Shown here piece by piece: positions 5,341-59,799 of a stretch of DNA of 64,000 nt. The notes beneath the pieces are model-generated. The model saw only the letters and a list, made by a program, of their open reading frames with translations, did no database searches and had not been told where the DNA came from. The stretch comes from Cyclobacteriaceae bacterium. Its GTDB lineage: Bacteria; Bacteroidota; Bacteroidia; Cytophagales; Cyclobacteriaceae. Position 1 is the first letter of the stretch, and each line of letters opens with the position of its first letter. The position numbers were made by a program, and so were the translations under genes. Where the stretch lies: positions 449,001 to 513,000 of the forward strand of contig JAHBTY010000002.1 of assembly GCA_019638355.1 (NCBI GenBank). The letters run 5' to 3'.

Positions 5341-6555
5341 ATGAGGAACGTTTTTACTTTACTGTTGATCTTTATATCGGCACCGTTGGTGGCTCAGAAA
5401 ATTACACTTTCGGGCAAAGCTATCGATAAAGAAACCAAAGAGCCTTTACCCTTCGCTACCCTGGGTATTAAAGGTAAATCCATCGGCACCATAACCAACC
5501 TGCAGGGCGAGTTCGATTTCCATGTTCCGGCCGAACTGCGAAACGATCTTTTCACACTTTCCATGCTGGGTTATAAACTATATGAAGCCCCGGTGTGGAG
5601 TTTGCTGGAAGTAAATCCACTTATTATTGAAGTAGAAAAATCTACCTTCATGTTAAACGAAGTAACCATTGCCGATTCATTAAAAGGTGGCGAAATTTTA
5701 CTCATCGCGCTTTCGCGGATTGAACAAAACTACCCCATGCAGCCCTACCTGATGGAAGGGTTTTATCGCGACTTGAAAAAAGTGGGCGGCACCTATATAG
5801 CATTACTGGAAGCGGCCGTAAAAATTTATGACGAAGATTATGCCGAACCCCGAAACAAATACAAACTGCGCGAGCGGGTATCATTGCAGGAGTTGCGCAG
5901 AAGCATAGGGTACGAAAGCCGGTTTACTTCTTATTTTGACCAAGATAATCTGTTGGAAGATTTATTACTACACAATAGTGTGCGCTACCGGCATTTTCCC
6001 TTAGAAGAAGTTTTTTACCAAAGCCTGAAGCGCGAAAAAGACACCTACTATAATAACCAGGAAGTTTTTGTTGTAAGCCACACACAAGATTACCTGCTGC
6101 GTATTTATGTAGAGAAAAAAAATTACGCCATTATACATGCTGTTTACGAAAGCAAACAAGAGGAGCCCCTTACCAAAAAAAGAGGCCTCGAAAGTAAGTT
6201 TGTGGGGTTGAAACGCGTAATCGATTTTAAACCTTTTCAGGGAAAGTACTACCTGAATTACCTTACGGTAGATTCAAAAATAAACTGGTATGATATCCGC
6301 AGTAAAGAATTAAAGTTTGAAACAGAACTTAATCAATCGTTATTAATAAACGATATTGTTCCCAATACCATCAGGCGTATTGCTACCACCGAAAAAATGC
6401 GCAACTATGGTTTGCAGTACCAGGACAAACCTTACAATAAAGTATTTTGGGATAATTATAACGTAATTAAAGAGAGCCCGTTGGATCGTAAAATTCTACA
6501 AGACCTGGAACGCCATGGTCCGTTGGAAAAACAGTTTAAGGAACATGAGTTTTAG
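5341..6555 (+). CDS. carboxypeptidase-like regulatory domain protein, exported
   Basis: 404 residues with a clear signal peptide (cleavage after LVAQ). Residues about 22-105 form a CarboxypepD_reg-like domain of the type found at the N-terminus of TonB-dependent receptors (SGKAIDKETKEPLPFATLGIKG...TNLQGEF). The remaining 300 residues contain no recognised domain and no transmembrane barrel signature, so this is not a full receptor. It is probably a periplasmic or surface protein. A -7-like box TACCTTAG lies at 5272-5279. It is the only plus-strand gene between divergent and convergent neighbours. Confidence 0.8.
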   Translation: MRNVFTLLLIFISAPLVAQKITLSGKAIDKETKEPLPFATLGIKGKSIGTITNLQGEFDFHVPAELRNDLFTLSMLGYKLYEAPVWSLLEVNPLIIEVEKSTFMLNEVTIADSLKGGEILLIALSRIEQNYPMQPYLMEGFYRDLKKVGGTYIALLEAAVKIYDEDYAEPRNKYKLRERVSLQELRRSIGYESRFTSYFDQDNLLEDLLLHNSVRYRHFPLEEVFYQSLKREKDTYYNNQEVFVVSHTQDYLLRIYVEKKNYAIIHAVYESKQEEPLTKKRGLESKFVGLKRVIDFKPFQGKYYLNYLTVDSKINWYDIRSKELKFETELNQSLLINDIVPNTIRRIATTEKMRNYGLQYQDKPYNKVFWDNYNVIKESPLDRKILQDLERHGPLEKQFKEHEF

Positions 6556-6620: not shown

Positions 6621-7607
6621 TCAAATCCCTATCCGCTCTGCTTCTGCCAATAATTCGGCTTTGTCAATTGGTACAACACCCACATGCTGGCAAACCAAAC
6701 CGCCACCTAAATTAGATAGAGCTGCAATTTGCTTAGGTGCTAATTTTAATGCTACGCAAAGAGCAGCAATACTTACCACTGTATCGCCTGCACCAGAAAC
6801 ATCGGCAATCTCGCGGGCATGGGCCGGTAGTTTTATTTTTTCGTTTTGGAAATCAATATAAACTCCGTGTTCAGAGAGTGTAGCCATTACTCCTTCTACC
6901 TGAAGTTTGTCTTTTAAAATTTTGATCGCAGCTTCCAACTGTACCTGATTGCCGGCTTCAAGTTCAACCTTCAATCCTTCGCGCATTTCTTTCAGGTTGG
7001 GTTTAAACAACGTTACCTGTTCGTATGCAACAAAGTTTCGTTTCTTCGGGTCAACAATGGTGGGTTTGCCTAACTGCTTCGCAAGTGTTACTGTCTTGCG
7101 GATCAACCCGGTGCTGATAACACCTTTATCGTAATCTTCAAAAATTACTGCATGGCAAGAAGGCAATAGCGTTTCAATTCGCTTCCACAGTTCGTCTTCT
7201 TCTTCAGATGTTGATGGCTTATCCGATTCATCATCTACCCGCACTACATGTTGGCTGCTGGCAATTATTCTTGTTTTTACCGTGGTGGGTCTGGTGACAG
7301 AAACCACCAAGCCTTCGGATGAAAGTTTTTGATCTTTGACAATTTGTTGCAGTCGTTTGCCAGCATCATCATCACCATAAAGTGCTACCATAAACGGTGT
7401 TGCACCCAATGCCTGTATATTAAGTGCCACGTTGGCGGCACCACCTAAACGCACATCGCGCTTCTTTACGTTTACAATGGGCACCGGAGCTTCGGGTGAA
7501 ATGCGATCAACCGCGCCCCAGATATAGCTATCGAGCATTACATCGCCAATGATTAAGACCCGAAGCGAATTGAATGACTGAAATATTTCAGGGAGCATTT
7601 GTGCCAT
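6621..7607 (-). CDS. rfaE1: D-glycero-beta-D-manno-heptose-7-phosphate kinase (HldE kinase half)
   Basis: 328 residues, PfkB (ribokinase) family. The N-terminal motif GGAANVALNIQALG and the C-terminal anion-hole and catalytic-base motif DVSGAGDTVVSIAAL are intact. The length matches stand-alone RfaE1 (about 330); the adenylyltransferase domain of bifunctional HldE is absent. The predicted role is phosphorylation of heptose-7-phosphate in the ADP-heptose pathway for lipopolysaccharide core. The start lies 1 nt after the stop of the aminotransferase gene, so the two are co-transcribed. Other PfkB sugar kinases are possible, but the GDVMLD and SPEAPVP motifs near the N-terminus favour RfaE1. Confidence 0.9.
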   Translation of the reverse strand: MAQMLPEIFQSFNSLRVLIIGDVMLDSYIWGAVDRISPEAPVPIVNVKKRDVRLGGAANVALNIQALGATPFMVALYGDDDAGKRLQQIVKDQKLSSEGLVVSVTRPTTVKTRIIASSQHVVRVDDESDKPSTSEEEDELWKRIETLLPSCHAVIFEDYDKGVISTGLIRKTVTLAKQLGKPTIVDPKKRNFVAYEQVTLFKPNLKEMREGLKVELEAGNQVQLEAAIKILKDKLQVEGVMATLSEHGVYIDFQNEKIKLPAHAREIADVSGAGDTVVSIAALCVALKLAPKQIAALSNLGGGLVCQHVGVVPIDKAELLAEAERIGI

Positions 7608-7608
7608 G

Positions 7609-8805
7609 CTACTTTAATTCACCCAACGCTTTTTTCAGGCGACCCATTGCCTCAATCAATTCTTTTTCAGAAGCTGCGTATGAAAGTCGAACACATTTCT
7701 CCTCGCCAAAAGCACCACCCGGCACTAACGATACATGTGCCTTTTCAAGTATGTACAAGCAGAAATCATCACCATCTTTAATCACCCGGTCGCCATCTTT
7801 TTTTCCATAGTAATAGCTCACATCCGGAAAAAAGTAAAATGCGCCTTGCGGATAATTGGCTTTTACACCGGGTATTTCCTTCAACAGGTTGTAAACAATA
7901 TCTCTGCGCTTGTGATATGCTTTTACCATTTCATTTGTGGGAGCAAGATCACCGGTAACGGCTGCCAATGCACCGCGTTGCGAAATGGAACAATTAGCAG
8001 AAGTAATCTGTCCTTGCACTTTGTTGCTGCCATCTACCACCCATTTAGGGGCTGCGATGTAACCCACGCGCCAGCCCGTCATGGCAAAGCCTTTGGCAAA
8101 ACCATTTACAGTAATCGTTCTATCAAACATGCCCGGTAACGAAGCTATACTGGTTTGATCGCCCGTAAAGTTGATGTGTTCATAAATTTCATCGGCAATT
8201 ATCATTAAGCCTTCGTGTTTTAACACTACTTGTGCAATGGCCTCTAATTCTTTCTTACTGAAAACTGAACCGGTAGGATTGCAAGGCGATGAGAAAATAA
8301 TTGCTTTTGTTCTTTTTGTAATCGCTGCCTCTACCTGGGCAGCAGTAACTTTAAAATCATTTTCGATTGTGCCTTTAACAATTACGGGTGTGGCTTCAGC
8401 CAATCGCACAAGTGCATCGTAACTTACCCAATACGGAGAGAAGACAATTACTTCATCGCCAGGGTTAAGCAAAGCCAACATAACGTTGGCAATGGATTGC
8501 TTGGCTCCGTTGCTTACTACAATATTTTCGGCTTTGTAGGGCACATTGTTTTCTTTCTGATATTTTGCTGCTAACGCTTCGCGCAAATCCTGGTAGCCGG
8601 CAACGGGTGGATATGAAAAGTACTTTCCTTCGTCAATGGCTTTTTTAGCTGCCTCGCAAATGTGTTGGGGAGTTTTAAAATCGGGTTCACCAAGGCTAAG
8701 GTTTATTACATCAATGCCACGGTTTTTAAATTCGCGGGCTTTGGCGGCCATAGCCAGTGTGGCCGATTCTTGTATGGCTTCGATACGATTAGAAAGTTTG
8801 CTCAT
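7609..8805 (-). CDS. pyridoxal-phosphate aminotransferase, class I (aspartate aminotransferase-like)
   Basis: 398 residues, fold-type I aminotransferase. The PLP-binding Lys lies in NGFAKGFAMTGWRVGY (around residue 236). SNGAKQ provides the phosphate-contact loop, SPCNPTG the substrate/cofactor loop, and the conserved Arg is in CVRLSYA. The closest remembered families are bacterial aspartate/prephenate aminotransferases (AspC/AspB subgroup Ib). The amino-acid specificity cannot be fixed by eye. It is followed at 1 nt by rfaE1. Confidence 0.92.
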   Translation of the reverse strand: MSKLSNRIEAIQESATLAMAAKAREFKNRGIDVINLSLGEPDFKTPQHICEAAKKAIDEGKYFSYPPVAGYQDLREALAAKYQKENNVPYKAENIVVSNGAKQSIANVMLALLNPGDEVIVFSPYWVSYDALVRLAEATPVIVKGTIENDFKVTAAQVEAAITKRTKAIIFSSPCNPTGSVFSKKELEAIAQVVLKHEGLMIIADEIYEHINFTGDQTSIASLPGMFDRTITVNGFAKGFAMTGWRVGYIAAPKWVVDGSNKVQGQITSANCSISQRGALAAVTGDLAPTNEMVKAYHKRRDIVYNLLKEIPGVKANYPQGAFYFFPDVSYYYGKKDGDRVIKDGDDFCLYILEKAHVSLVPGGAFGEEKCVRLSYAASEKELIEAMGRLKKALGELK

Positions 8806-8904
8806 GATTTAATGGAAAATGTGCCCAAAAGTAAGAAAGAATCTGAACGCTGTAAATGATAAATGAAGATTGGTGATGCGCTAAACGTTTGTTAGTAAGA
8901 TTCA

Positions 8905-11716: not shown

Positions 11717-11844
11717 ATTCATCAGGAGTTTTAATTCTATGCTGCACGTGGTGCCAAAACCTTGCCTTGCAATAAAAAGCCTTAGAATTTGCTCAAATCA
11801 ACCAACATGGCGTTAGGGTATTTCCCATGCTGGGATTTACAGTC

Positions 11845-52587: not shown

Positions 52588-52600
52588 TCTGAAAAATCCT

Positions 52601-52634
52601 CCGAGGTCTTTATGCATCAGTTAATAGACCTCAG
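52601..52634. terminator. hairpin between convergent genes
   Basis: CCGAGGTCT / AGACCTCAG arms around a 16-nt loop, between sprT-like and the ABC exporter. Confidence 0.55.
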
Positions 52635-52643
52635 AGTATTTAG

Positions 52644-54812
52644 TTAAGAAACAACATCCAACATCGGAAATTGCTGCTTCCATAAGTTGAAGTAATGACC
52701 TTGTTTGTTTAAAAGGTCGGAATGAACTCCCGCTTCAACTACCTCACCTTTATCCAGCACTACAATTTTATCGGCTTGATATACGGTGCTTAAGCGATGG
52801 GCAATTATCATCACGGTTTTTTCACGACTTCGCAGTACTTCAATCATGCGTTGAACGTATCGTTCAGAAGCCGAATCCAAAGATGAGGTGGCTTCGTCCA
52901 GAATCAAAATCTCAGGGTCTTTATACAAGGCGCGTGCAATTGCAATGCGTTGCTTCTGGCCACCTGAAAGTGTAGCTCCGTTTTCACCCAGATACGTACT
53001 GAAGTTATTGGGAAGCTTTTCAATAAACTCCATAATACCCAATGCGTTGCAAATGGTGATTATCTTTTTCATGTCGGGCTGATAATCACCCACTGCGATA
53101 TTATCAACCACGTTGCCAGCAAACAAATCTATCTTTTGAGGTACCACGCCAATCATAGACCGCAACGATTCGTTTTCGATGTACTTTAAATCATAATCAC
53201 CAATGCTTACACTCCCGCTTTGCAGCGGATACAAATTTTGAAGCATCGCCATCAGGGTAGATTTACCTGAACCACTCTCACCTACAATGGCCGTAACTTT
53301 TCCTTTCGGGAATTGCACAGTCAGATTTTGAAAAACGGTTACACGACTGCCATACCGAAAGTTCACATTCTTAAATTGGATGTCGCCAATCAGCTCGGGT
53401 GTTAGTTTAACTTTGTTCTCATCTTTCTCGCGCTCCAAATCCATTATTTCGAAGAGACGATCAGCTGCGATTACAGCATTTTGAATAGTCTTATTCATTC
53501 CTATCAAACTACTTACCGGACCGGTGAAATATGCGATCAATGCGTAGAATGAAAGTAATTCCCCCGGTGTGATTTCATTATCCAACACATAGCCAGCACC
53601 TACCCACAGAAGAACAATAGTAAATAGCCTTGAGAAAAACTCAGAGGAGTTGCCGGTGAAAATGCTATTGATACCCGATTGATAAACTGTTTTTAAAAGC
53701 GTAATAAACCGAACCTCTGTTTTTAGATTGGTAAAACTTTCCAAACCAAAACTCTTTATGGTATGCACAGGATTTAATGACTCCACCAATTGCGATTCCA
53801 ACTCAGCCGAGTTCTCCATTAATTTACGCTCTACTTTCTTATTGAGTTTGTTGGTGATGAAGTAGATAATTGAATAGAAGGGTATGATTAAGAGAATAAC
53901 CAATGCCAGTTTCCAGTAATAGGTAAACATAAGGGCAAAGGCTAAAATCAGAATAAAGATATTTACAGCTACATTAATAAGTACATCGTTTACAAACGCC
54001 CGGATTTTTACCGCATCGTTTATACGCGAAATGATTTCACCCACGCGCATAGTATCAAAAAATTGCTGCGGTAATTTGAGCAAGTGTTTGTAATACCCTA
54101 AAATCAATTGCGCATCTATCATCTGCCCTGTGCGCAAAGTGAAAACGCTTTTAGAGGCTCCTATAAAAATTTGAACGACTAATAGTGCAATCATGGCCAC
54201 ACTCATGATGTTCAATAAATTCCGGTTGCCATCTATCAGCACATAGTCAATAATTTTTTGGACATAGATAGAAGTAGAAAGCCCAATAACCGTATAAACC
54301 AACGCCCCAAATAACGCTTGCAGCATGATGGCTCGGTGCGGATAAATCAATTGCCAGAATCTTGTGCCTACTGAAACTTTTGTGTTGCCGGTTTCAAAAC
54401 TTTGGTTGGGCAACATTAACACCAAAACGCCCGTCCAGATTTTTTTAAAGACTTCATGGCTATACCGATGCAACTGGCCATCGGCCGGATCCATTACTTC
54501 AATGTGCTTGGGATTAGTGGTATAAATCACTAAGTAATGGTGTAATACTTCCTTTAGAATGACATGCGCAATAGCAGGTTTTGGAATCTTAAAAAGACTA
54601 TCGAACTCGCCCCGGACACCTTTCGTATCAAAGCCTAACTTATTAGCAGCCTCGATCAACCCTAAAACATTGGTACCTTTTTTATCGGTAGAAGCAAGTT
54701 GGCGGATGCGTGAAACCGGTAGTTTAAGTTCATAGTTAGCGGCAATAGAAGCAAGACAGGCCGCACCACAGTCGGTTATATCGCGTTGTTTTACTTTAAT
54801 ACCGGGTTTCAT
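52644..54812 (-). CDS. C39-peptidase ABC exporter for double-glycine-leader peptides (PCAT)
   Basis: 722 residues. The N-terminal C39 peptidase domain (1-130) has the catalytic Cys in ITDCGAACLASIA and His in HYLVIYTTN, with Asp in VMDPADG. Six membrane helices (about 160-440) follow, then the ATPase with Walker A VGESGSGKST, signature LSGGQKQRIAIARAL, Walker B ILILDEATSSLD and the H-loop. Such exporters cut leaders after Gly-Gly and secrete the mature peptide. Two fitting precursors are encoded at 58.5-59 kb on the same strand, with an HlyD adaptor between. The IS element at 55.1-56.4 kb now separates this gene from the adaptor. Confidence 0.94.
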   Translation of the reverse strand: MKPGIKVKQRDITDCGAACLASIAANYELKLPVSRIRQLASTDKKGTNVLGLIEAANKLGFDTKGVRGEFDSLFKIPKPAIAHVILKEVLHHYLVIYTTNPKHIEVMDPADGQLHRYSHEVFKKIWTGVLVLMLPNQSFETGNTKVSVGTRFWQLIYPHRAIMLQALFGALVYTVIGLSTSIYVQKIIDYVLIDGNRNLLNIMSVAMIALLVVQIFIGASKSVFTLRTGQMIDAQLILGYYKHLLKLPQQFFDTMRVGEIISRINDAVKIRAFVNDVLINVAVNIFILILAFALMFTYYWKLALVILLIIPFYSIIYFITNKLNKKVERKLMENSAELESQLVESLNPVHTIKSFGLESFTNLKTEVRFITLLKTVYQSGINSIFTGNSSEFFSRLFTIVLLWVGAGYVLDNEITPGELLSFYALIAYFTGPVSSLIGMNKTIQNAVIAADRLFEIMDLEREKDENKVKLTPELIGDIQFKNVNFRYGSRVTVFQNLTVQFPKGKVTAIVGESGSGKSTLMAMLQNLYPLQSGSVSIGDYDLKYIENESLRSMIGVVPQKIDLFAGNVVDNIAVGDYQPDMKKIITICNALGIMEFIEKLPNNFSTYLGENGATLSGGQKQRIAIARALYKDPEILILDEATSSLDSASERYVQRMIEVLRSREKTVMIIAHRLSTVYQADKIVVLDKGEVVEAGVHSDLLNKQGHYFNLWKQQFPMLDVVS

Positions 54813-54863
54813 ACCTCTGCTTTAATTGTTTATCTTTAACCTAACTAAATAAGTTTGATAATT

Positions 54864-55031
54864 ATGTCGCTTACTAAGACACGAAAGACAAAGAAAGCAG
54901 CCACAAAAAAGGGAGTTAAAAAGCGAAAGCCAGCAAACAAAGGCTTTGATAAGGCTTGGCAGTTTTGGAAAAATACTCAAATTGATTTGAGTGGATTCAC
55001 TTTTAACCGAGAAGAAGCAAATGCCCGATAA
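54864..55031 (+). CDS. probable antitoxin of a broken VapBC-like pair (55 aa)
   Basis: ATG 54864 to TAA 55031. The N-terminal half is strongly basic (TRKTKKAATKKGVKKRK). The C-terminal half (FDKAWQFWKNTQIDLSGFTF) ends in a short acidic/basic helix, as in antitoxins that wrap a PIN toxin. The next frame starts 11 nt before its stop and opens like a PIN domain. The pairing is inferred from overlap and pattern; no antitoxin DNA-binding fold was recognised. Confidence 0.55.
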   Translation: MSLTKTRKTKKAATKKGVKKRKPANKGFDKAWQFWKNTQIDLSGFTFNREEANAR

Positions 55032-55071
55032 TATTTTTGTTGATTCAAATGTGTTGCCCGTATTTATAGCT
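55021..55071 (+). pseudogene. PIN-domain toxin, 5' fragment cut by an insertion sequence
   Basis: Reads MPDNIFVDSNVL, the typical first strand of a PIN ribonuclease with its first catalytic Asp, for 17 codons. It then enters the IS left end and stops. The remainder of the toxin is not found on the other side of the IS. Confidence 0.6.
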
Positions 55072-55145
55072 GTACGGTACTAGGCTGATTTTTTTGAACA
55101 GGTTAAAAGTAGAGTTTTTTAATTTTAACCTAACCAAACAGTCAA

Positions 55146-55415
55146 ATGAAAAAGATGCGTTTTACCGAGGCCCAGATTATTGGGATACTCAACGAACAGT
55201 CACAACAGGATCAAAAGGTTTCAGAAGTATGCCGCAAACATGGCATAAGCGAAGCTACGTTTTACAATTGGCGTAGTAAATATGCAGGCATGAAAGTAGA
55301 TGAGCTTAAGCGGCTTAAGGAACTGGAATACGAGAACGCAAGGCTAAAGAAAATTGTAGCAAACCAGAGTCTGGAGATCGATGCCATTAAGGATTTACTT
55401 ACAAAAAAGTTTTAA
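55146..55415 (+). CDS. IS3-family transposase OrfA
   Basis: 89 residues. The helix-turn-helix of the transposase (KKMRFTEAQIIGILNEQ...CRKHGISEATFYNWRSKYAG) is followed by a leucine-zipper helix (LKELEYENARLKKIVANQSLEIDAIKDLL). The A6G slippery heptamer at 55403-55409, just before the stop, allows -1 frameshifting into OrfB to make the fused OrfAB transposase. Confidence 0.95.
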   Translation: MKKMRFTEAQIIGILNEQSQQDQKVSEVCRKHGISEATFYNWRSKYAGMKVDELKRLKELEYENARLKKIVANQSLEIDAIKDLLTKKF

Positions 55416-55438
55416 CGCCTGATCAGAAAGAACACGGC

Positions 55439-56221
55439 TTGGAGTATCTGGGAGAACACTACCAGATGAGCCATGCTCAGGCGTGTAAGCTGGTGGGGTG
55501 TTCGCGAACGAAGAAGTATTATCAAAAGCGAATGCCAGCCAAAGATGCCGTAGTAAAAAAAGCGATTGAAGAAGTTATTGGCAGTAGCCGTAAAGGAAGA
55601 ATGAAAGTGATTAAGCTCGTACAGAAAAAACATCCAGAACTGGGTGATAGTAAAATCAGAAGAGTGTATGAGAACGAAGGATTCTCGTTGAGTAAAAGAT
55701 TATGTAGGCGTATCAAGGACAACCCTGCCAATCCTATCTCTATTCCGTTAAGAGCCAACCAGGAATGGGCGATGGACTTCATGAGTGATGCCTTGGATAA
55801 TGGCCGAAGAATCCGAGTACTTAACATTGTCGATCATTTCAATCGGCAGTGCAAAGGCATTGAAGTGGATTTCAACCTACCAGCTCGAAGGGTAATAGAA
55901 ATATTGGAGCGAGCAATTGAACGCTATGGTAAACCGCTTAAAATCCGTACCGACAACGGTCCTGAGTTCCGCTCCAAACGATTTCAATTGTGGATGAAGG
56001 ATAACCACATAGAATGGAGCCGCATACAGAAAGGTAAGCCGCAACAGAATGCCATCATCGAACGCTTCAACAAAACGTATCGCGAAGATGTGCTGGATGC
56101 CAATTTGTTTCACACCATTGAACAAGCAAATGACGTGACGGAAAGGTGGGTAGATGACTACAATCACAAAAGGCCACATCAATCGCTCAACTATCAGACC
56201 CCGATGGCTTATGCAGCGTAA
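55439..56221 (+). CDS. IS3-family transposase OrfB (DDE integrase core)
   Basis: 260 residues as an independent frame from a TTG; the frame is open back to the frameshift site. The DDE triad is complete: Asp in NQEWAMDFMSD, Asp in LKIRTDNGPEF and Glu in NAIIERFNKTYR. The C-terminal YNHKRPHQSLNYQTPM is typical of the IS407/IS51-like branch. No frameshift or stop breaks it, so the element looks intact and possibly active. Confidence 0.95.
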   Translation: MEYLGEHYQMSHAQACKLVGCSRTKKYYQKRMPAKDAVVKKAIEEVIGSSRKGRMKVIKLVQKKHPELGDSKIRRVYENEGFSLSKRLCRRIKDNPANPISIPLRANQEWAMDFMSDALDNGRRIRVLNIVDHFNRQCKGIEVDFNLPARRVIEILERAIERYGKPLKIRTDNGPEFRSKRFQLWMKDNHIEWSRIQKGKPQQNAIIERFNKTYREDVLDANLFHTIEQANDVTERWVDDYNHKRPHQSLNYQTPMAYAA

Positions 56222-56422
56222 GGTTTTTTTAAGGCATAAGACTCTTGGAATGATCCAAAAGAAAAGCCCCGCACAAAAGGCAGGGCTTGACCATTCCAGT
56301 CGGTTGAACCTAACCCTGACAGGTTGCTCCTCAGCAGAGCCTGTTTCCGTTTCAGTTCAACAATGCAAAATTCAAATCAGTAATCTATATTTACAACCTG
56401 TCAAAATTCTCAGCCATTTACC

Positions 56423-56474
56423 GTACTTTTTTGTCTTGACACAAAAAAGTACCAAAAAAGGTCAAGACAAAAAG
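56423..56474. repeat. inverted-repeat element at the IS right flank
   Basis: GTACTTTTTTG (56423-56433) pairs with CAAAAAAGTAC (56442-56452) around TCTTGACA. An overlapping longer pairing joins CTTTTTTGTCTTGAC (56426-56440) with GTCAAGACAAAAAG (56461-56474). From memory similar sequences are dispersed in Bacteroidota genomes. No gene is seen from here to 56578. Confidence 0.65.
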
Positions 56475-56578
56475 ATGCTTCCTCACACTTGCCACCGCAC
56501 CCTCGCCTTTTTGTCGGGCCTCCGCACTTGAGTTTCAAAATGAATACTTGTTTAAATTTTAGAATTTACTTCTTTCAC

Positions 56579-57739
56579 TCAATTATTAGGTTGCAATAGG
56601 TTCGGATTCAACCAATCATCCATTTTATCATACAACAACTGCCACAAAGTACGTTCCGTAACCATAAACCGGGCCTGCAGCGTCATGCCTTTTTTTAAGT
56701 AACCTTTGTAGCCATTTTTTAATTGCAGGTAATCTTTATCTAACTGGCAGCGCACTTTAAATACGGGTTGGTCATTGATAATATGTACATCGCTGGAGAT
56801 TTCTTTTACTATACCAGTAGCCAAACCCCATTGATTGTAATTAAACGCATTTACCTGAAAGCGTACCGGCATACCTGCGCGTATCAAGCCAATATCATTC
56901 GGGGTTACGTATGCCTCCACGATCATCGTAGTATCTGGCGAAATTTGCGCCAGCTCCTGGTTAGCAAACACCATGCTGCCCGGGTAAACTCCGGCTACCT
57001 TTTGTAGTGTGCCCGAAACCGGAGCTTTGATAACAAGATTCTCGTTCTCTTTGGCGAGTTGGGCTAGTTGACCTTCCAAGTCTTGTAGCTCACGCTCATA
57101 CGTGCGCAACTCACTTTGCCATTGGCTCAGCTGACTTTGCTTCACCAATTCTAACTCATTCTTAGCTTTATCTAATTCAAACTGAAAGTTTTCAAACTCT
57201 ACATCGGCTATTACTTTTTCCTGGTGCAGTTTATAATTACGATTGTAATCAGCTTGTACTTTTTTAAGCCGAGTAGTGGCCTCAGTGAGTTTTTGCTTGT
57301 AGTTGAAATACGACTGACGGTAAAGCGCGGTGGTTAAATCTTTGCCGGCAGCATTTACCAAAAGGTTCTTTAAATCAAACATAAAAAATTCTATATCCTG
57401 CTTTTTAAGTAGCAATAATTTTTCGCGCTCTTGTTGGATATCAGATTCTAAGTTGTAGAGAATCTCGCCTTTCTTTATGATTTGATTTTCTTTTACAAGG
57501 GAGGTTTTAAGTCGGCCATTAAGTAATGGACGAATAAGGCTGATTTCAGAACTGGGGCGAATAAGGGCGGAGGACTGGATAGAAATAGGAATTACTAGAA
57601 TGAATGATGAGCAAATTAAAAGGACTAAAATAATACAAGCAGAAAGGTAAATGATTCTCGATTTTATTGATAGAAATCGATAGTTGGAGTTAATCGATTG
57701 TTCGAGTGCGGCAGACGGTATTATCTTGTGATTACTCAT
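56579..57739 (-). CDS. HlyD-family adaptor protein of the peptide exporter
   Basis: 386 residues. A single membrane helix near the N-terminus (about 29-53) is followed by a biotinyl-lipoyl half-motif and a long alpha-helical hairpin (about 90-225, KKQDIEFFMFDLKNLL...ELVKQSQLSQWQSELRTYEREL). The second half-motif NLVIKAPVSGTLQKVAGVYPGSMV and a beta domain complete the fold. This is the membrane-fusion partner of a C39 ABC exporter. It lies 10 nt downstream of the CPBP gene. Confidence 0.92.
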   Translation of the reverse strand: MSNHKIIPSAALEQSINSNYRFLSIKSRIIYLSACIILVLLICSSFILVIPISIQSSALIRPSSEISLIRPLLNGRLKTSLVKENQIIKKGEILYNLESDIQQEREKLLLLKKQDIEFFMFDLKNLLVNAAGKDLTTALYRQSYFNYKQKLTEATTRLKKVQADYNRNYKLHQEKVIADVEFENFQFELDKAKNELELVKQSQLSQWQSELRTYERELQDLEGQLAQLAKENENLVIKAPVSGTLQKVAGVYPGSMVFANQELAQISPDTTMIVEAYVTPNDIGLIRAGMPVRFQVNAFNYNQWGLATGIVKEISSDVHIINDQPVFKVRCQLDKDYLQLKNGYKGYLKKGMTLQARFMVTERTLWQLLYDKMDDWLNPNLLQPNN

Positions 57740-57749
57740 TTATCCTTAC

Positions 57750-58451
57750 TTAATTTACCGCAAAAGAAAGAAGGTTTATTAATGAATGTAATAAAACACA
57801 ATAAGCAAAGCCAATTTCAATTCTTGTATACCCTATTAAAACTGCCATTATAAGTTGAGGCAAAGTAAATAGTGGATAAATTAGAATGACACTGCTATTG
57901 TAAGAATCAAAATTTGTGAGATGTAAAAGGGCAAATATTACTGCATGAATGAAAAAAACTAACTTGAAATTATTCTTAAATAAATCAAGAAATTTTTTAG
58001 GAAAAAAAAATGTTACTAATCCAGCAAAAAATATTGAACCTACTATTTTGAAATAAGTGTCGAATTTCTGGTAGTCAATCGATAATAGATTACCTGTCAG
58101 CAAATAGAAAAACATGAATCCAAGGCTTACTCCAATCGATAACTTGCTCAAGTTAAGCGGAAGTCTAAATAAAATCTCTTCGTATAGAGGCCCTAGGATT
58201 ACAACTATGATAAACGAGTAGTTTCCAAACCTATTAATTGATTCACTATTTGTTACTTTCAGTTGTTCGTAAATTGAAAAATCAGAGAAGTAGAATATTA
58301 GTGAATCTATAATCCTTAGAAAGATTCCTGCTATTAAAGCTATGGCAACATATAGTAGGAAAATTGATAATGTTTTTTTTATTTTTTCGAGTTGGCTGAA
58401 TTGATTGTGATTTCTTACTGTAGGATTCTTGAGATATTCAATTATTTGCAT
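57750..58451 (-). CDS. CPBP (Abi-type) membrane protein, candidate immunity protein
   Basis: 233 residues with about seven hydrophobic helices. CPBP motifs are present: GPLYEEILFRLPL (Glu pair and Arg) and VIFALLHLTNF (His). The third motif is weak. In Gram-positive class IIb bacteriocin loci such proteins confer self-immunity. The position directly after two double-glycine peptides and before the exporter supports that role here. Peptide processing is an alternative. A hairpin at 58518-58548 separates it from the peptide genes. Confidence 0.8.
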   Translation of the reverse strand: MQIIEYLKNPTVRNHNQFSQLEKIKKTLSIFLLYVAIALIAGIFLRIIDSLIFYFSDFSIYEQLKVTNSESINRFGNYSFIIVVILGPLYEEILFRLPLNLSKLSIGVSLGFMFFYLLTGNLLSIDYQKFDTYFKIVGSIFFAGLVTFFFPKKFLDLFKNNFKLVFFIHAVIFALLHLTNFDSYNSSVILIYPLFTLPQLIMAVLIGYTRIEIGFAYCVLLHSLINLLSFAVN

Positions 58452-58517
58452 TTCCGAAGATAATTTAAAGAGTATCCTATTCCGGATTGAAAAGCATCGT
58501 ATTAAGAGTTCGGAAAG

Positions 58518-58548
58518 TAAGAAGCTATCCTTTTTAGACAGCTTCTTA
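58518..58548 (-). terminator. hairpin between peptide genes and CPBP gene
   Basis: Stem of 12 bp with one wobble (TAAGAAGCTATC / GACAGCTTCTTA), loop of 7. It could partly terminate transcription so that the peptides are made in excess over the exporter genes. Confidence 0.6.
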
Positions 58549-58556
58549 CAAATTCA

Positions 58557-58736
58557 TTACAAGAAAAATGCAATAATTCCTATCACGGTAAGTCCAGCAA
58601 GAATTCCTTTTCCTGCACTATAACCGTGCTCTTCTCCAGCAGCAAATCCTTTGTTCCAATCTCCTCCATTAATCTCTACCATTTCAGATAGGTTTATTGA
58701 AGATAATTCTGGTTGATCTAATATTAAAGATTCCAT
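58557..58736 (-). CDS. double-glycine-leader bacteriocin-like peptide 1 (59 aa)
   Basis: Leader MESLILDQPELSSINLSEMV continues to EINGG (Gly24-Gly25), the cleavage signal for C39 exporters. The mature part has 34 residues starting DWNKGFAAG. Gly30, 34, 38, 42 form a GxxxG ladder, with another GxxxG at 44-48, followed by a hydrophobic tail (LTVIGIIAFFL). This is the design of class IIb two-peptide bacteriocins. It lies 20 nt after peptide 2. No Cys, so there are no disulfides or lanthionines. Function inferred. Confidence 0.82.
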   Translation of the reverse strand: MESLILDQPELSSINLSEMVEINGGDWNKGFAAGEEHGYSAGKGILAGLTVIGIIAFFL

Positions 58737-58756
58737 AAGAGTAACATTTTTAATTT

Positions 58757-58948
58757 TTAAAATAAACTTTTAAACAAGCCAGTAACAAAACCAGCAACAT
58801 AGCCTACATTAGTGGTGAAGTTATCCCAAGTTGGGCCTTCTCCTCGCATTAATCCATCTACATCACCACCTTGTATTGAGGTTTGCTCAAGAGAATCAAG
58901 CTCTGTTAAATGATTGTCCTTTAAGAAAGGATTTAAATTAGTCTTCAT
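58757..58948 (-). CDS. double-glycine-leader bacteriocin-like peptide 2 (63 aa)
   Basis: The leader has LTELDSLEQTSIQGG (Gly27-Gly28), close to the double-glycine consensus. The mature part has 35 residues: a polar N-terminal half (DVDGLMRGEGPTWDNFTTN) and a hydrophobic C-terminal half with Gly49, 53, 57 in GxxxGxxxG, ending LFKSLF. It complements peptide 1 in length and motif. A weak -7 box TATTTTTA (58975-58968) lies about 20 nt upstream. First gene of the predicted bacteriocin operon. Confidence 0.82.
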   Translation of the reverse strand: MKTNLNPFLKDNHLTELDSLEQTSIQGGDVDGLMRGEGPTWDNFTTNVGYVAGFVTGLFKSLF

Positions 58949-59373: not shown

Positions 59374-59799
59374 ATGCCTACCCCAAAATTCGATGAACTA
59401 AAAGTAAACACCCGAATCAAGTTAGTTGCACTTTGGGTTGCCACAATGTTTTTTTACATCTATGGCGATTACTTCGCGTTATACATTCCGGGTGAGGCTG
59501 GCAAACTAGTGGATGGAAAAACGTTGCTAAATGAACCCATCAAAGTATTTGCTGCATCGGTGTTGATGAGTTTACCCTCGCTTGTCATAATTACTACCAC
59601 ATTGGCACTCGCGGCTGTGGCAAGGTGGGTAAACATTGTATTTGGAATAATTTTTACCACCATTATGGTACTAATCGCTGTTACTTCCTTCCCAATAACG
59701 GCCGAGGTTTCAGCGTATGTATTTTATGCAGTAGTTGAAAGTTGTATTACTGTAGTGATTATATGGCAAGCGTGGAAGTGGCCAAAGTCAATTGATTAA
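59374..59799 (+). CDS. DUF6326-like small membrane protein
   Basis: 141 residues with four hydrophobic helices (LVALWVATMFFYIYGDYFALY, VFAASVLMSLPSLVIITTTLAL, IVFGIIFTTIMVLIAVTSF and YVFYAVVESCITVVIIW). The first-helix motif and the short loop YIPGEAGKLVDG resemble the DUF6326 family. Function unknown. Convergent with the following gene, 7 nt apart. Confidence 0.78.
   Translation: MPTPKFDELKVNTRIKLVALWVATMFFYIYGDYFALYIPGEAGKLVDGKTLLNEPIKVFAASVLMSLPSLVIITTTLALAAVARWVNIVFGIIFTTIMVLIAVTSFPITAEVSAYVFYAVVESCITVVIIWQAWKWPKSID

Follow-up and report, generated by a model that had tools for sequence, protein, structure and literature searches.

The window analysed here, a stretch of 64,000 nucleotides from a Cyclobacteriaceae bacterium of the phylum Bacteroidota, carries between positions 52644 and 58948 five minus-strand genes that we read, with a probability of roughly 0.6, as a horizontally acquired two-peptide (class IIb-like) bacteriocin locus. 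Two adjacent small genes, pep1 (58757–58948) and pep2 (58557–58736), encode precursors of 63 and 59 amino acids (aa) with double-glycine (GG) leaders. They are followed by genes for a CPBP/Abi-type membrane protein of 233 aa (57750–58451), a HlyD-type periplasmic adaptor of 386 aa (56579–57739) and a C39-peptidase ABC exporter of 722 aa (52644–54812). All five genes, which an earlier note on this DNA had picked out from the letters alone, were recovered at these positions with intact reading frames, and the catalytic motifs are present. The same note had placed the shorter precursor below common gene-caller cut-offs, but 59 aa is not below the usual ones. Its description of the locus as complete does not hold, since an IS3-family insertion sequence (IS) and a truncated PIN-domain gene between the adaptor and the exporter had been overlooked. 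Our case for a class IIb-like function is built on the gene set, the leaders, the glycine pattern and the related loci rather than on direct similarity of the two window peptides to known bacteriocins.

The leaders were scored with a 15-position profile trained on 51 peptides that are encoded near related exporters and show a GG-plus-hydrophobic pattern, with the window excluded. The profile places the cut after Gly28 in pep1 (23.1 bits) and after Gly25 in pep2 (25.7 bits), compared with a leave-one-out median of 24.3 for the training set. One of 963 control open reading frames (ORFs) scored as high as pep1 and none as high as pep2; the sole ORF matching the pep1 score sits in the related locus L050 and itself resembles a GG precursor. 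The processing sites proposed in the earlier note thus agree with the profile: leaders of 28 and 25 aa, ending in Gly27-Gly28 and Gly24-Gly25, would be removed from mature parts of 35 and 34 aa.

The glycine ladders listed previously are also present (Gly49/53/57 in pep1; Gly30/34/38/42 and Gly44/48 in pep2). Counted as GxxxG motifs, the mature part of pep1 contains three (32/36, 49/53 and 53/57; shuffle p = 0.020) and that of pep2 four (30/34, 34/38, 38/42 and 44/48; shuffle p = 0.006), and neither peptide has a cysteine. A helix spanning residues 27–58 of pep2 is predicted with low confidence (predicted local distance difference test, pLDDT, of 60). Among congeneric genomes pep1 has one recognisable homologue, at positions 6670–6843 of locus L018, which is 40% identical in the alignment and keeps the GG site and Gly32/36/53/57. 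The positional counterpart of pep2 in the same locus (6878–7060) is 32% identical in the alignment and keeps the GG site and Gly38/42/53, so that the GG sites and some of the GxxxG positions are conserved in the sole homologous locus found.

The exporter exceeds the curated cut-off of TIGR01193 (529.3 bits against 523.85), matches PF03412 (E 1.3e-32) and carries the C39 Cys/His/Asp, Walker A/B and signature motifs; its C39 domain is the only C39 match found in the genome. The adaptor, whose frame is intact, matches PF13437 (3.6e-14) and PF16576 (2.4e-11) and has homologues in other genomes. For the outer membrane, the genome holds 36 matches to the TolC-type efflux domain PF02321.

Against PF02517 the 233-aa membrane protein reaches 21.7 bits, just under the gathering cut-off of 22.4. 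However, its motifs EExxxR, FxxxH and HxxxN (EEILFR, FALLH and HSLIN in the window) are conserved across an alignment of such proteins (A5), and 12 of the 16 members of that alignment match PF02517 at E ≤ 0.001 (best 1.9e-15); we therefore take it to be a CPBP protein. Its AlphaFold (AF2) model has a pLDDT of 90.8, and two comparisons of the model with solved structures returned no clear match. In plantaricin loci, proteins of the CPBP/Abi type are known to give immunity, and immunity is the likeliest role here, although not the sole candidate. CPBP proteins of other bacteriocin clusters are reported to act in immunity, in processing or as receptors (PMC9298176). A group of shorter CPBP-like proteins (about 150–160 aa), with ETxxFQ replacing EExxxR, adjoins GG pairs in L021 (631–1086), L024 (10188–10670) and L055 (12231–12689); these are possibly non-proteolytic immunity proteins.

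A set of loci with a related adaptor was collected. HlyD matches at E ≤ 1e-10 occur in 16 of 58 congeneric genomes, its own included (three are weak, between 1e-10 and 1e-12, and one is a contig-end fragment). A wider contig scan yielded 33 loci, of which one is weak (L063, 26%); all come from Bacteroidota lineages except one from a metagenome-assembled genome of Balneolales. After three duplicates had been dropped, 44 loci including the window were examined, several of the stretches being short or ending at contig ends. The exporter lies within the stretch in 38 of the 44, and at least one GG peptide was found in 36. The two-gene order seen in the window recurs: tandem GG genes are present in 28 loci, and in 15 a tandem pair is followed by a CPBP gene within 1 kb. 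An ORF with CPBP motifs lies on the exporter strand in 26 loci, against a single such ORF on the opposite strand in the whole set. The full order peptide-peptide-CPBP-HlyD-exporter is also found in L018, L021, L022, L024, L029, L037 and L059, the exporter genes being split in L024 and L029.

The glycine pattern extends beyond the window. Across the 90 mature GG peptides of these loci, the window's two included, glycines four residues apart were observed 81 times against 37.5 expected (z = 8.4), whereas for the other spacings from 1 to 8 z stays at or below 1.5, with a depletion at spacings 1 and 3. At least one GxxxG motif is present in 50 of the 90 peptides, compared with 29.0 in shuffles (largest value 41).

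Searches with 89 of these mature peptides, among them those of the window, against NCBIfam returned the lactococcin G-beta/enterocin 1071B family as the commonest match; the five hits are weak (best E 0.00082) and do not include the window's two. Lactococcin G-alpha was matched once (E 0.019), and nine other families, mostly unrelated, matched one or two peptides each, while in the reversed-peptide control the class IIb families matched none of the 89. Ten precursors were also scanned singly, and sub-threshold matches appeared to G-beta for three of them and to TIGR03949 for three. The best was that of the first L019 peptide, which reached 27.4 bits against G-beta as a precursor (E 2.9e-6; cut-off 37) and 15.7 bits as a mature peptide (E 0.013), and the first peptide of L018, which is the pep1 homologue, 19.8 bits (E 6.5e-4) and 16.8 bits (E 0.0058). 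The window peptides match neither of the lactococcin G models NF038034 and NF038035 (cut-off 37 bits), whether as precursors or in mature form. A match of pep2 to TIGR03949 (lactobin A/cerein 7B) at 13.1 bits, against a cut-off of 21.5, covers residues 18–50, mostly leader, and the mature part gives none; the other weak matches of pep2 are to a daptide family and to FliH.

Two peptide types were defined within the collection, A1 ('Y..G...G') and A2 ('D.w..f..G...G'). Plantaricin K ranks first (E 0.2) when profile A1 is compared with 177635 PDB sequences, lactococcin G-alpha is matched by 1 of 17 A1 members and G-beta by 2 of 16 A2 members. The two types are combined in 11 of 39 tandem pairs, compared with 3.9 when labels are shuffled (permutation p 5e-5), with A2 preceding A1 in 10 of the 11, and like is never paired with like (0 of 39, against 3.7 with shuffled labels; p 0.012). 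Because the types were selected by hand on visual inspection and in awareness of known class IIb motifs, this pairing counts as support for a two-peptide system and not as proof of one.

The surroundings of the locus bear on its origin. It is flanked by a 190-aa gene and a SprT-like gene. Searches recovered the former from 31 of 60 congeneric genomes; 30 of its loci were read, 28 besides those of the window's own genome and of genome G009. The SprT-like gene adjoins the 190-aa gene, with no bacteriocin genes between them, in 25 of the 28 and lies outside the stretch in the other three. The simplest reading is that the bacteriocin locus is an insertion, shared with the syntenic locus L024 of G009. 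At the DNA level, identity between the two loci amounts to 87% in the stretch running from the flank through the exporter, to 89% in most of the HlyD gene and to 83% from the 190-aa gene on. However, between positions 57580 and 58986 of the window, from the start of HlyD through the CPBP gene and both peptide genes (all on the minus strand), blastn found no similarity to L024 save for 118 bp upstream of pep1 (74%), and the alignment of the two CPBP proteins does not surpass what shuffled sequences give. The G+C content at third codon positions is 0.20–0.30 in the peptide genes, the CPBP gene and the HlyD start, compared with 0.43–0.56 in the exporter, the remainder of HlyD and three flanking genes. 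Peptides and CPBP protein that differ together beside a fixed exporter would fit a toxin-immunity cassette, a suggestion drawn from this one syntenic pair.

Two further features of the insertion site may be mentioned. A palindrome of about 57 bp, which may be a bidirectional terminator, occurs at each end of the L024 insertion (about 6133–6194 and 11725–11786) and at one end in the window (52592–52647). A gene for a DUF6326 membrane protein (59374–59799), with a third-position G+C content of 0.40, lies between the peptide genes and the 190-aa gene, and does not stand beside the latter in the other 29 loci read.

Taken together, these data suggest the following course of events. The C39 exporter would cut both leaders after GG, and the cleaved peptides would leave the cell via the exporter, the HlyD adaptor and one of the TolC-type channels of the genome. 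In the envelope of a sensitive cell the two unlike glycine-zipper peptides would pair as helices through their GxxxG faces; the target, probably a related cell, would be made leaky by the pair, and the CPBP protein would shield the producer from its own peptides. Peptide and immunity genes would be swapped as one cassette, the exporter staying in place. Cleavage and export are well-established activities of C39 exporters, whereas pairing, killing, target and immunity are what we infer.

The gap between adaptor and exporter raises the question of whether export still works in this genome. The IS3-family element (NF033516; 55076–56422, plus strand, with orfA at 55146–55415 and orfB at 55439–56221), whose ends were set by comparing copies, is flanked on both sides by GTAC, the target duplication. 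There are four identical full copies in the genome, which suggests that the element has been active recently; diverged or partial copies are also clustered on contig C5 (553740–556240). The element directly abuts the first codons of a plus-strand PIN-domain gene (55021–55075), which has a small basic ORF (54864–55031) upstream, and the two (54864–55075) are the remnant of a probable toxin-antitoxin pair. L024 has a longer PIN frame (PF01850, 5.8e-15) at about 8390–8900, on the opposite strand between HlyD and exporter, the window counterpart of which, at the syntenic place, comprises only the first 11 residues (E 0.22). The insertion may be polar on the exporter, which may be poorly transcribed unless it has a promoter of its own, and the IS3 element may thus have weakened export here.

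How far, then, does the two-peptide reading carry? The class IIb assignment made in the earlier note gains comparative support from the tandem pairs, the pair-then-CPBP order, the glycine spacing of four, the pairing of unlike types and the weak matches of relatives to lactococcin G and plantaricin K; the completeness of the locus and the near-confinement of such systems to Gram-positive bacteria are the parts of it that fail. Besides the possible polar effect of the IS3 element, a number of observations weigh against the assignment. Neither window peptide matches any curated family above cut-off, and pep1 matches none at all. They fit neither peptide type (the best score, that of pep1 against A1, is 9.8 bits, with the reversed control reaching 14.1). 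Profiles A2 and A6 retrieved no bacteriocin from PDB, and Pfam yielded none either. Class IIb peptides are typically cationic, whereas the mature parts of pep1 and pep2 have net charges of −2 and −1. The strongest lactococcin match, that of L019, relies partly on leader residues. Homologues are rare: searches of 62 genomes found pep1 in two, its own included, and pep2 in its own only, with no congener. By the criteria used, 16 of the 44 loci have no tandem pair and 29 no pair-then-CPBP order, and at some loci the GG peptides are many and varied (eight in L045). Finally, the two lactococcin models, run over 395 Bacteroidota genomes each, gave hits in three and two genomes, none above cut-off. 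Of these five places, four are small open frames that contain a GG site, which in two of them is not preceded by an ATG, and the fifth falls inside a 595-aa frame; at one place, L075, two unlike GG peptides are encoded in tandem.

Among the alternatives, decay of the locus, with the IS3 element and the PIN remnant parting the exporter from its promoter and the genes silent, is unlikely. The recent insertion and the four identical copies speak for it, as does the distance between adaptor and exporter of about 20 bp in L018. A terminator-like hairpin inside the IS3 element, on the operon strand (56288–56264), adds little, because hairpins of this kind are not enriched over shuffled sequence (4 in the region against 5.5). 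Both exporter genes of the syntenic L024 are split by frameshifts, which may however be assembly errors, and all five frames of the window are intact with their catalytic motifs; the relative also has a PIN gene in the gap, so that the exporter may own a promoter. We consider it rather improbable that each peptide is a one-peptide bacteriocin in its own right (class IId or microcin II-like), the two sharing an exporter and owing their adjacency and GxxxG motifs to common ancestry and helix packing. Some loci do have one, three or more GG peptides, the window peptides are assigned to neither type, and duplicated GG genes occur, as in the two similar pairs of L050. Yet tandem pairs of unlike type exceed those with shuffled labels and nearly always run in one order, and the class IIb matches of relatives hit both halves of lactococcin G.

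Two other explanations concern the roles of the individual products. A role of the CPBP protein in processing or maturing the peptides, in place of immunity, is quite improbable: its protease motifs are intact, and processing is among the roles reported for CPBP proteins of other clusters (PMC9298176), but the C39 domain should already cut the leader, and 10 of the 28 loci with tandem pairs have no CPBP-motif ORF in the stretch read, so that the protein seems dispensable for maturation. The peptides might also be signals or self-directed agents, such as pheromones or peptides that cause autolysis of the producer, and not weapons, which we regard as very improbable. GG-leader peptides can be pheromones, and this counts in favour of a signalling role. 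In Neisseria gonorrhoeae, GG peptides are reported to function in autolysis and did not kill competitors (PMC11798529), and SilX, a CPBP protein, seemed to work for a signal peptide and not in immunity (PMC9298176). On the other hand, Pfam recognised no regulator in the scanned neighbouring genes, the IS transposase aside, and the joint difference of peptides and CPBP protein at the syntenic site is what would be expected of a toxin-immunity pair rather than of a conserved signal.

Nearest in anatomy to the two-peptide locus proposed here are the class IIb loci of Gram-positive bacteria (lactococcin G, enterocin 1071, plantaricin J/K), which likewise have two adjacent GG precursors, GxxxG motifs and a C39 exporter with an accessory protein, and whose lactococcin G-alpha/-beta and PlnK peptides are weakly matched by relatives of the window peptides. 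Here, however, the host is Gram-negative and uses a HlyD adaptor, all matches stay below the curated cut-offs, and the window peptides are anionic and unmatched. The view in the earlier note that class IIb bacteriocins are described essentially from Gram-positive bacteria is outdated. A preview of a survey of 56 phyla with IIBacFinder reports predicted unmodified class II precursors in Bacteroidota (PMC12648078), and CdzC/CdzD of Caulobacter crescentus, two small GxxxG proteins exported by type I secretion in a Gram-negative bacterium, are called genetically similar to class IIb (PMC5380434). The Cdz system has features of its own: precursors of 86 and 84 aa, N-termini resembling those of RTX (repeats-in-toxin) proteins, a small membrane immunity protein, surface aggregates and contact-dependent killing (PMC5380434). 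Bacteroidetocins, also from Bacteroidota, share GG leaders and a GG-peptidase ABC exporter, but they are described as class IIa-like single peptides with four cysteines for which no immunity gene was found (PMC6671954), whereas the window encodes a CPBP protein and two peptides that lack cysteine. Class II microcins and the Nap peptides of N. gonorrhoeae resemble the window system in combining a GG motif with a C39 peptidase in Gram-negatives; the Naps, however, are cationic and act in autolysis, and the word CAAX is absent from the text describing them (PMC11798529). Bacteroidetes clusters were also listed in an earlier survey of human-associated genomes (PMC4573289).

Lactococcin G-like pairs with CPBP proteins and cassette exchange are not described in the available part of the IIBacFinder account (PMC12648078), and our searches of open-licence papers showed no description of such pairs with CPBP proteins in Bacteroidota. 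On our reading the window locus is one of a set of class IIb-like pairs accompanied by CPBP proteins in Bacteroidota and apparently exchanged as cassettes. A wider proposition, which we put forward tentatively and at somewhat less than even odds, is that Bacteroidota hold a widespread superfamily of two-peptide systems resembling lactococcin G and plantaricin JK and missed by curated models. Recombination would swap its peptide-peptide-CPBP cassettes next to a conserved type I exporter, related strains would differ in the toxin-immunity pair at one site, and the pairs would act on the Gram-negative envelope. We know of no lactococcin G-type mechanism acting on such an envelope. The curated family models searched miss these peptides, and exchange of cassettes would provide natural allelic toxin-immunity pairs for asking how the peptides handle the outer membrane and how CPBP proteins confer immunity.

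Two of the related loci display additional arrangements. In L045 (9260–11940) eight small ORFs with GG-leader-like N-termini and very varied mature parts lie within 2.7 kb downstream of one exporter. In L029 a 115-aa frame (5745–6092), with an N-terminus that by eye resembles a helix-turn-helix and with a GG-like site (ELKNIKGG), is located just upstream of the GG pair.

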